Part shown: positions 58,430 through 62,518 of the stretch, piece after piece
How the letters are laid out: every line of letters begins with the position of its first letter
Position numbering within the stretch: the first letter of the stretch is position 1
Assembly: GCA_040755095.1 (NCBI GenBank)
Contig: JBFMBH010000001.1
Location: forward strand, 1-64,000
Origin: Thermodesulfobacteriota bacterium
GTDB lineage: Bacteria > Desulfobacterota > Desulfobulbia > Desulfobulbales > JBFMBH01
Reading direction: 5' to 3'
DNA: 64,000 nt
The notes under the pieces: generated by a model
Databases searched by the model: none
What the model was told of the DNA's origin: nothing
What the model saw: only the letters and a program-made list of their open reading frames with translations
Position numbers and translations under genes: made by a program

Positions 58430-58506
58430 GTGAGCGTGGCTCAGTTGGTTAGAGCACCGGGTTGTGGCCCCGGAGGTCGTGGGTTCAAGTCCCATCGCTC
58501 ACCCCA
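58430..58506 (+). tRNA. tRNA-His (GTG anticodon), CCA encoded
   Basis: The acceptor arms GTGAGCG (58430-58436) and CGCTCAC (58496-58502) pair perfectly. The anticodon loop is TTGTGGC (anticodon GTG). The T loop GTTCAAG is canonical and the D arm 'GCTCAGTTGGTTAGAGC' is normal. The discriminator is C73 (58503), followed by an encoded CCA. The preceding G at 58429 gives the G-1 identity element of tRNA-His, pairing with C73. Confidence 0.97.
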
Positions 58507-60328: not shown

Positions 60329-60353
60329 GCCGGCCGGCAGCCCCCGGAATGCA

Positions 60354-60387
60354 AAGAGCCCTGACGCCACCGGGCGCCAGGGCTCTT
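60354..60387. terminator. Convergent hairpin terminator
   Basis: AAGAGCCCTG / CAGGGCTCTT (10 bp) with an inner GC-rich stem, located between the permease (plus) and the HesB-like gene (minus). The T tracts are short on both sides, so efficiency may be modest. Confidence 0.6.
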
Positions 60388-60408: not shown

Positions 60409-60753
60409 TCAGCAGCCGCAGGAGCCGGAGGAGGTGCTGCAGCTGGAGCCGCAGCCACCACCGCCCCGCACCACCGGGACGGTGGAGGTGATGGCGAACC
60501 CGGAGCGGTAGCCGTCCTCCACAAAGTCCACCCGGATGCCGCCACTGCGGCTCAGAAGGTCGGATTCCACGACAAAGGTCAAACCATCCCGATCGAAGAC
60601 CTGATCACTTCCTGTTGGCTCATCCAGAGCCAATCCCAGGCTGGGACCGGCTCAGCCACCGGTACTGACCATGACCCGCAAGGCCGAGGTGATGTTGCGG
60701 GCCTCCAGGTAGGCCTTGAGATTGCTGACTGCGCTGTCCGTGACTTCAAGCAT
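60409..60753 (-). CDS. HesB/IscA-like protein with in-frame TGA, probable selenoprotein
   Basis: The frame from ATG 60753 (GGAGG 8 nt upstream) runs through an in-frame TGA at 60654-60652 to a final TGA at 60411-60409. With TGA read as Sec it gives 114 aa: 'MLEVTDSAVSNLKAYLEARN', then 'ALRVMVSTGG-U34-AGPSLGLALDEP', a standard 'VFDRDGLTFVVESDLL' core, and a Cys-rich C-terminus 'GGGGCGSSCSTSSGSCGC'. In ordinary relatives position 34 is the first cluster-binding Cys (GG-C-x-GPxLGLALDEP), so Sec replaces Cys. A SECIS-like hairpin begins 18 nt (upper stem) after the TGA. HesB-like selenoproteins are known in anaerobic bacteria. Likely role: an A-type Fe-S carrier or redox protein. A conventional start after the TGA would lose the key residue. 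Confidence 0.85.
60611..60640 (-). promoter_or_regulatory. SECIS-like stem-loop for selenocysteine insertion
   Basis: On the minus strand downstream of the TGA: CCTG-gga-TTGGCTC-TGGAT-GAGCCAA-CAGG. It has a perfect 7-bp upper stem, a 5-nt loop with G at position 2, a 3-nt bulge and a 4-bp lower stem. The loop begins 25 nt after the TGA, within the range for bacterial SECIS elements (SelB binding). It lies within the coding region, as expected for bacteria. Confidence 0.75.
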
Positions 60754-61026: not shown

Positions 61027-62112
61027 ATGAAAAAGCTCGTCATCTCCACCGGCGGCGGCGATGCGCCCGGCCTCAATGCGGTCATCTATGCGGTGGTCAA
61101 GGCGTCGCACCTCCGGGGGTGGGAGGTCTATGGCAGCCGTTGCGGCTATCTGGGCCTGCTGGACCCGGACGAGCTGGTGCGTCTGGAGCCTGAGGACGTG
61201 GACGGCATCACCGCCACGGGTGGCACCATCCTGGGCTCCACCAACAAGGGCAACCCCTTTGCCATGCCAGTCCAGAACCTGGCTGGCGAATGGCAGATCC
61301 GGGATGTCTCCGACCGGGTGATGACCAACTACCAGCGCATGGGCTTCCACTGCCACATCGCCGTGGGGGGTGACGGCAGCCTGGCCATCGCCCATGCCTT
61401 TGCGGAAAAGGGTATGAACGTGGTCGGCGTGCCCAAGACCATCGACAACGATCTCCAGGCCACCGTACAGACCTTCGGCTTCGACACCGCCATCAGCACC
61501 GCCACCGAGGCCCTGGACAAGCTCCACTCCACCGCCAAGTCCCACGACCGGGTGATGGTGGTGGAGGTCATGGGCCGGGATTCCGGCTGGATCGCCCTCA
61601 ACAGCGGCATCGCCGGCGGCGCCGACATCATCCTCATCCCGGAGATCCCCTTCGACATCGGTATCGTCAGCGCCAAGGTCGGGGACAACGACCTGCACGA
61701 CAAGCATTACTCCATCGTCGTGGTGGCGGAGGGGGCCAAGCCCAAGGACGGCGAGGTGGTGCACAAAGGCAAGGGCGAGATCGGCCGGGAGGAGGTACTC
61801 CTGGGCGGCATCGGCGAATGGGTGGCCACCCAGATCCAGCAGCGGACCGGCAAGGATACCCGCTCCCTGGTGCTGGGCCATCTCCAGCGGGGCGGCAGCC
61901 CCACCACCTTCGACCGCCTCCTCGCCTTGCGCTTCGGCGCCGCCGCCGTCCGCCTGGTGGAGAGGGGCACCTTCGACCACATGGTGGCCCTGGCCTCGCC
62001 GGGCATGACCGCGGTGCCCCTGGCCGAGGCGATCCGGGAGCGCAAGAAGGTCGACCTCGACAACGACAAGGTTCTCACCGCCCGGGAGATCGGCACCTGC
62101 TTCGGCGACTGA
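61027..62112 (+). CDS. 6-phosphofructokinase (group III, G/K-type active site)
   Basis: A 361-aa glycolytic enzyme phosphorylating fructose 6-phosphate. Motifs: 'STGGGDAPGLNAVI', 'GGDGSL' (114-119), 'PKTIDNDL' (136-143), 'MGRDSGWIAL', 'GHLQRGGSPTTFDR'. In this superfamily a Gly after GGD indicates ATP use (PPi enzymes have Asp), while Lys in PKTIDND is typical of PPi-type and of group III ATP enzymes. The G/K combination therefore points to a group III enzyme, most likely ATP-dependent; phosphoryl-donor specificity should be tested. 'aggag' lies about 11 nt upstream of the ATG. Confidence 0.92.
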   Translation: MKKLVISTGGGDAPGLNAVIYAVVKASHLRGWEVYGSRCGYLGLLDPDELVRLEPEDVDGITATGGTILGSTNKGNPFAMPVQNLAGEWQIRDVSDRVMTNYQRMGFHCHIAVGGDGSLAIAHAFAEKGMNVVGVPKTIDNDLQATVQTFGFDTAISTATEALDKLHSTAKSHDRVMVVEVMGRDSGWIALNSGIAGGADIILIPEIPFDIGIVSAKVGDNDLHDKHYSIVVVAEGAKPKDGEVVHKGKGEIGREEVLLGGIGEWVATQIQQRTGKDTRSLVLGHLQRGGSPTTFDRLLALRFGAAAVRLVERGTFDHMVALASPGMTAVPLAEAIRERKKVDLDNDKVLTAREIGTCFGD

Positions 62113-62174: not shown

Positions 62175-62273
62175 TCAGCCTTGGGCCACCCCGGAAACTA
62201 CCGGATCCCAAAGACCGTCTTCGGCGCCCATCGCCGGATCCAGGTTGACGAGCCAGATTTCGCCCTGCCTCAT
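62175..62273 (-). pseudogene. MazF/PemK toxin remnant (N-terminal fragment)
   Basis: The frame beginning ATG 62273, overlapping the antitoxin stop, reads 'MRQGEIWLVNLDPAMGAEDG', the standard start of MazF-type endoribonuclease toxins ('RGEIWLVNLDPxxGxE'). It then diverges into 'LWDPVVSGVAQG' and stops after 32 aa; the full family length is about 110 aa. No further toxin sequence is seen before the phosphofructokinase gene, so the toxin is truncated and surely inactive. Confidence 0.75.
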
Positions 62274-62518
62274 GCGAAATCCTCCCCGTCCAGGGCGCAA
62301 AGCACGGTCAGCTCCTGGTTGCTGGCATACTCCTCGGCCATCTCTGCCGCAATGGCCGACAGGCGGCTTCGCTTCTGCTCCTCGATGAACCGTTCCAGCG
62401 CCATCCGGTAAAGATCGGACCTGGAGACCTTGAGCTCCTTCCGGAGCGCTTCGACAGCACCGGCCAGGGAATGAGGAAGAGAGACGGTAATCCTGTCTAC
62501 GCTGGTCGAAGCACGCAT
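62270..62518 (-). CDS. Ribbon-helix-helix antitoxin (MazE/CopG-like), orphaned
   Basis: An 82-aa protein. Residues ~7-45 give the RHH DNA-binding pattern ('DRITVSLPHSLAGAVEALRK', 'SRSDLYRMALERFI'), followed by an acidic helical tail ('AAEMAEEYASNQEL') of the sort that neutralises a toxin. 'gaggagg' precedes ATG 62518. It overlaps the toxin remnant by 4 nt, the usual toxin-antitoxin layout. With the toxin broken, it may persist as a plain repressor. Confidence 0.82.
   Translation of the reverse strand: MRASTSVDRITVSLPHSLAGAVEALRKELKVSRSDLYRMALERFIEEQKRSRLSAIAAEMAEEYASNQELTVLCALDGEDFA

Follow-up and report, generated by a model that had tools for sequence, protein, structure and literature searches.

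A HesB-like selenoprotein gene of predicted IscA fold, with an in-frame UGA probably decoded as selenocysteine, in a Desulfobulbales genome

The window analyzed here, a stretch of 64,000 nucleotides from a Thermodesulfobacteriota bacterium of the order Desulfobulbales (contig JBFMBH010000001.1), carries on its minus strand a HesB-like gene of 114 codons plus a stop TGA (60409..60753), identified by a match to the NCBIfam model NF038090, by PDB sequence matches to IscA and by alignment with relatives. Its start codon ATG (60753-60751) is preceded by a GGAGG 8 bases upstream, and the terminal TGA (60411-60409) is the real stop of the gene. A further in-frame TGA, at codon 34 (60652..60654, minus strand), falls in a UxGP motif and corresponds in alignment to E. 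coli IscA Cys35. In the list of open reading frames made with translation table 11, only a 3′ fragment of this frame appears, 74 aa long and starting from TTG. The first-pass annotation had thus rightly stated that a conventional reading splits the gene, and the coordinates, strand and TGA position it gave were all exact when the sequence was read again.

The HesB-like gene stands alone. Upstream lies a divergent phosphofructokinase (PFK) gene (61027..62112, plus strand; PF00365, 332 bits) and downstream a convergent ABC-type membrane gene. PFK is a conserved neighbour, found near the family gene in 32 loci with a synteny that is wide in the order, and stands outside the mechanism proposed below; in other lineages a ClpB or an AMMECR1-like gene (both named by eye) is located downstream. 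This neighbourhood shows synteny but no functional partner for the HesB-like gene. No sigma-70 consensus promoter was found for it. Just 3′ of the gene, a strong hairpin with a short T tail (60352..60387, minus strand) is a probable transcription terminator according to its fold (15-bp stem, −32 kcal/mol and z −3.8 for the stretch 60405-60350); it was not picked by a scan for consensus terminators. Elsewhere in the window, a lone tRNA-His gene is found at 58430-58506 (plus strand), and an RHH (CopG-type, PF01402) antitoxin-like gene at 62175-62518 (minus strand) precedes what, judged by eye, resembles the start of a MazF/PemK-type gene that soon ends. This 32-aa piece has no Pfam match, and the two together may be a toxin-antitoxin pair that has been broken.

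When the TGA is translated as an amino acid, the protein reaches 125 bits against NF038090 ("IscA_HesB_Se", cut-off 85) over residues 1-103, 63.6 bits against TIGR00049 and 33.7 bits against the Pfam Fe-S_biosyn model. It stays below the cut-off of TIGR01911 (HesB_rel_seleno; 33.3 bits, cut-off 66.35), the model cited for the HesB-like family in a 2026 review (PMC13188914). Judged by these scores, the protein belongs to the sister model NF038090 and not to TIGR01911. Scores of 56, 44 and 42 bits against the IscA, SufA and ErpA equivalogs likewise lie under the respective cut-offs (151, 136 and 117). Sequence matches in the PDB are E. coli IscA (E 4e-13), Aquifex AQ_1857, HI1723, SufA and another IscA (1x0g).

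Deltaproteobacterial lineages (Desulfobulbales, Desulfobacterales, Syntrophales, Desulfovibrionales and Desulfuromonadales) account for nearly all of the 45 family loci that a scan of genome contigs yielded, and one is a Nitrospira record. In an alignment of relatives, the in-frame TGA occupies a single column, mostly inside a G-U-x-G-P-x-L motif, and this column holds a TGA in 69 of the 89 homologues compared. In a survey of 146 genomes of the order, the family is found above the cut-off in 136, with a single TGA in the best copy for most of the matches listed. The recurrence of the same TGA in the same column, among 69/89 homologues and across most of the order's genomes, excludes a chance origin. 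Homology is continuous through the TGA, and the region around it is among the best conserved of the family, bearing out the earlier statement that conservation continues on both sides. Residue 34 is aligned to IscA Cys35, so that the TGA indeed falls where relatives have the first Fe-S ligand Cys, and the motif at this first-ligand position reads U34-A-G-P.

The machinery for selenocysteine (Sec) insertion, which the first-pass annotation had proposed to look for, is complete: the genome has the full set of four sel genes, comprising a tRNA-Sec (selC) with 74.7 bits, above the gathering score, selA (604 bits), selB (358 bits) and selD (347 bits). The selD gene itself (contig C121:5522-6445) contains an in-frame TGA within CGUAAK, the usual UxxK selenoprotein form, making it the genome's second selenoprotein gene. 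Across the order, selB is found in 126 of the 146 genomes.

Downstream of UGA34, a hairpin UUGGCUC-UGGAU-GAGCCAA (60615..60633, minus strand) of 7 bp is a candidate SECIS element, its loop UGGAU starting 25 nt after the UGA. Its fold energy is −10.2 kcal/mol, and none of 200 shuffles is as good. The published bacterial SECIS model asks for a loop of 3-9 nt with G in the first two positions, a stem of 4-16 bp, a distance of 16-37 nt from the UGA and a minimum free energy of at most −7.5 kcal/mol; the hairpin agrees with it in loop (UGGAU), stem (up to 7 bp), distance (25 nt) and energy (−10.2 to −10.6 kcal/mol). Of 68 distinct Sec-type genes, 65 have the 5-bp core of the stem paired throughout, versus 1 of 20 Cys-type relatives, counts that come from related sequences and therefore do not represent independent events. 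Nine genes show the compensatory change C-G to T-A at one stem pair, where the 3′ change from GAG to GAA is synonymous, and five others show G-C to A-T. Moreover, of the 53 Sec-type genes with Ala at a given place in the stem, 52 use the codon GCT there, and Cys-type genes mostly use GCC. The compensatory changes and this codon bias point to selection on the stem at the RNA level, beyond selection on the protein. The minimum-energy fold of 60654-60604 is a different, overlapping 12-bp helix lying upstream. It was rejected as SECIS core despite its energy, since relatives cannot form several of its pairs and keep it only in part. The SECIS-like hairpin reported earlier at the right distance is thus real, with the correction that the hairpin supported by evolution is 60633-60615 and differs from the strongest fold. 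An Rfam search of the region gave no match near the gathering score.

Taken at face value, the standard code leaves just the 74-aa 3′ fragment of this frame, as would be expected if translation truly ended at the TGA, or if the TGA were a sequencing error or marked a pseudogene. Such an origin is very improbable, as the same TGA is present in dozens of independent genomes together with a covarying SECIS, the sel genes are present in the genome itself, and a paralogue in the same genome carries Cys at the same position. A misread TGC or TGT in particular is excluded in practice by this recurrence with a co-conserved SECIS. None of the findings named beforehand as fatal to the selenoprotein reading (a genome without sel genes, an unconserved TGA region, a TGC/TGT error) was encountered. 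From the sequence, the sel genes and the covariation, we infer that SelB with Sec-tRNA would read UGA34 as selenocysteine, with the hairpin 60633-60615 directing the decoding. The identification as a HesB/IscA-like selenoprotein therefore stands, carried by the NF038090 match across the TGA, the sel genes, the recurrent TGA and the SECIS, and we put the probability that 60753-60409 encodes a HesB-like selenoprotein of IscA fold with UGA34 decoded as selenocysteine at about 0.95. To this extent the case is chiefly an annotation correction.

A single genus accounts for three genomes that lack selB and whose only family members are of the Cys type; this genus seems to have lost selB, and its pattern speaks for Sec decoding. 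Another 13 genomes combine a TGA copy with no detected selB, all being drafts of 40-380 contigs, and here the absence of selB likely reflects missing sequence. At 13 loci (L062, L081, L082, L084, L085, L009, L033, L035, L038, L039, L040, L042 and L044), a Sec gene and a Cys-type paralogue are neighbours in the same orientation, separated by 111-392 bases. These tandem pairs apparently arose by repeated duplication and may represent selenium-dependent isoforms. In a tree of 89 sequences built with the Sec/Cys column masked, poorly resolved because of its few columns, 11 state changes are needed, at least three of them forced by well-supported branches. Some Cys copies (L062, L070) keep the SECIS stem intact or nearly so, which on sequence grounds reads as a recent change from Sec to Cys; a remnant SECIS in this family was reported earlier for Desulfitobacterium hafniense (PMC1794560). 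The genome studied here also has a distant Cys paralogue (L060; contig C105:3939-4241) with a CGC motif inserted before the last strand, and similar inserts occur in L018, L019, L041 and L073. In two Solidesulfovibrio-type genomes, a third family-like ORF (L035:3388-3699 and L039:2970-3284) follows the Sec/Cys pair, with Glu replacing Sec/Cys.

An AlphaFold model of the protein (mean pLDDT 79.9; tail residues mostly below 50) has IscA and SufA as its best PDB matches, and its matches to 1r94 (E 6.5e-8) and 1s98 (E 3.5e-7) predict an IscA fold. The ligands of IscA are C35, C99 and C101. That three-Cys set, with CxC near the C-terminus, is not present here; instead, Sec34 is combined with a CGSSC-type tail. 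The Cys-rich tail, GGGGCGSSCSTSSGSCGC, is encoded at 60412..60465 (minus strand), and its first two cysteines, C101 and C105, are among the invariant positions of a 30-sequence alignment, as is the Sec/Cys34 column. From the alignment, the putative ligand set is related to that of IscA but not identical to it.

The first-pass annotation had asked whether Sec in an IscA-type scaffold makes a cluster carrier or a redox enzyme, a question that is also open in the literature, and our tentative preference is for the carrier. Sec34, in place of the ligand Cys35, would act with C101 and C105 to bind an Fe-S cluster or some other cargo, metal or chalcogen, and the protein would hand it on; such an A-type carrier is the most likely single role, albeit one held with reserve. 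It is supported by the absence of a canonical A-type carrier from profile searches of the genome with PF01521, whose sole match is the Cys paralogue on contig C105, and with TIGR00049, which matches that paralogue and the HesB-like gene and no other. A TIGR00049 survey of 38 genomes found a separate match above the cut-off and free of stops in 12, and one further match above it is a TGA gene of the HesB-like family. Many Deltaproteobacteria have no A-type carriers at all (PMC2682760), so the absence of a canonical carrier does not force this role on the protein. Against a carrier also speak the tail, which is CGSSC rather than CxC and is modelled with very low confidence, and the lack of Fe-S assembly or redox genes among the conserved neighbours of the family loci. 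We found nothing direct in the literature on a selenoprotein acting as A-type carrier.

The main rival leaves Sec decoding unchanged and sees an IscA-fold redox enzyme that works through its selenol, in which Sec34 forms a selenenylsulphide with a tail Cys and reduces either a protein disulphide or a small substrate. A redox function is presumed for most uncharacterised bacterial selenoproteins (PMC13188914), the tail, rich in invariant Cys and probably flexible, could resolve Sec34, and no Fe-S genes lie nearby; yet there is no CxxU or UxxC motif and Sec sits exactly at the cluster-ligand position, making this role rather unlikely. Doubtful, too, is a third reading that likewise concerns function only, with a metalloid or selenium/sulphur cargo, or a tie to selenium status, instead of Fe-S cluster carriage. 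The repeated origin of tandem Sec and Cys copies is as expected of selenium-responsive isoforms, and the structural matches include DsrR, which has the IscA fold and belongs to sulphur metabolism, but sulphur, arsenic and mercury genes are not among the conserved neighbours. Going beyond the carrier role itself, it is conceivable, though improbable, that in much of the order canonical A-type carriers gave way to the Sec protein together with its Cys-type paralogues, so that selenium would natively ligate an Fe-S cluster in transit and the tandem Cys copies would serve as a selenium-independent backup in some lineages. The function of the family is an old question, and the order is well suited for testing it, given the near-universal presence of the family and, often, no other A-type carrier. 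Additionally, it offers natural tandem Sec/Cys pairs and a genus seemingly without selB that has Cys-type members only.

With E. coli IscA, SufA and ErpA, the protein shares the fold (36% identity to IscA when the structures are aligned) and the first ligand position, and differs in having Sec for Cys35 and CGSSC plus extra tail Cys for CxC, as well as in scoring far under their equivalog cut-offs. The HesB-like selenoprotein of Methanococcus maripaludis, reported as such from mutagenesis and 75Se labelling, belongs to the same named family (PMC11097638); it is archaeal, with archaeal Sec decoding, and is likened here by family name. Its disruption mutant still fixes nitrogen, a further point against the carrier role, and the function of the HesB-like protein is not clear (PMC11097638). 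Contrary to the novelty implied at first, HesB-like selenoproteins are an established family since the mid-2000s with a curated NCBI model. Eleven bacterial cases, Desulfovibrio (with D. vulgaris) and Geobacter included, were described in 2006 (PMC1794560), further catalogues list the family (PMC1242214; PMC1088965), one of them as "Unknown (iron/sulfur cluster assembly?)" (PMC2933860), and the 2026 review gives its motif as UxGP (PMC13188914). The gene described here is a new member: it resembles the NF038090/UxGP family (PMC13188914, Table 1; PMC1794560) in Sec position, in its UAGP, which fits UxGP, in fold and in deltaproteobacterial host, with no substantial difference.
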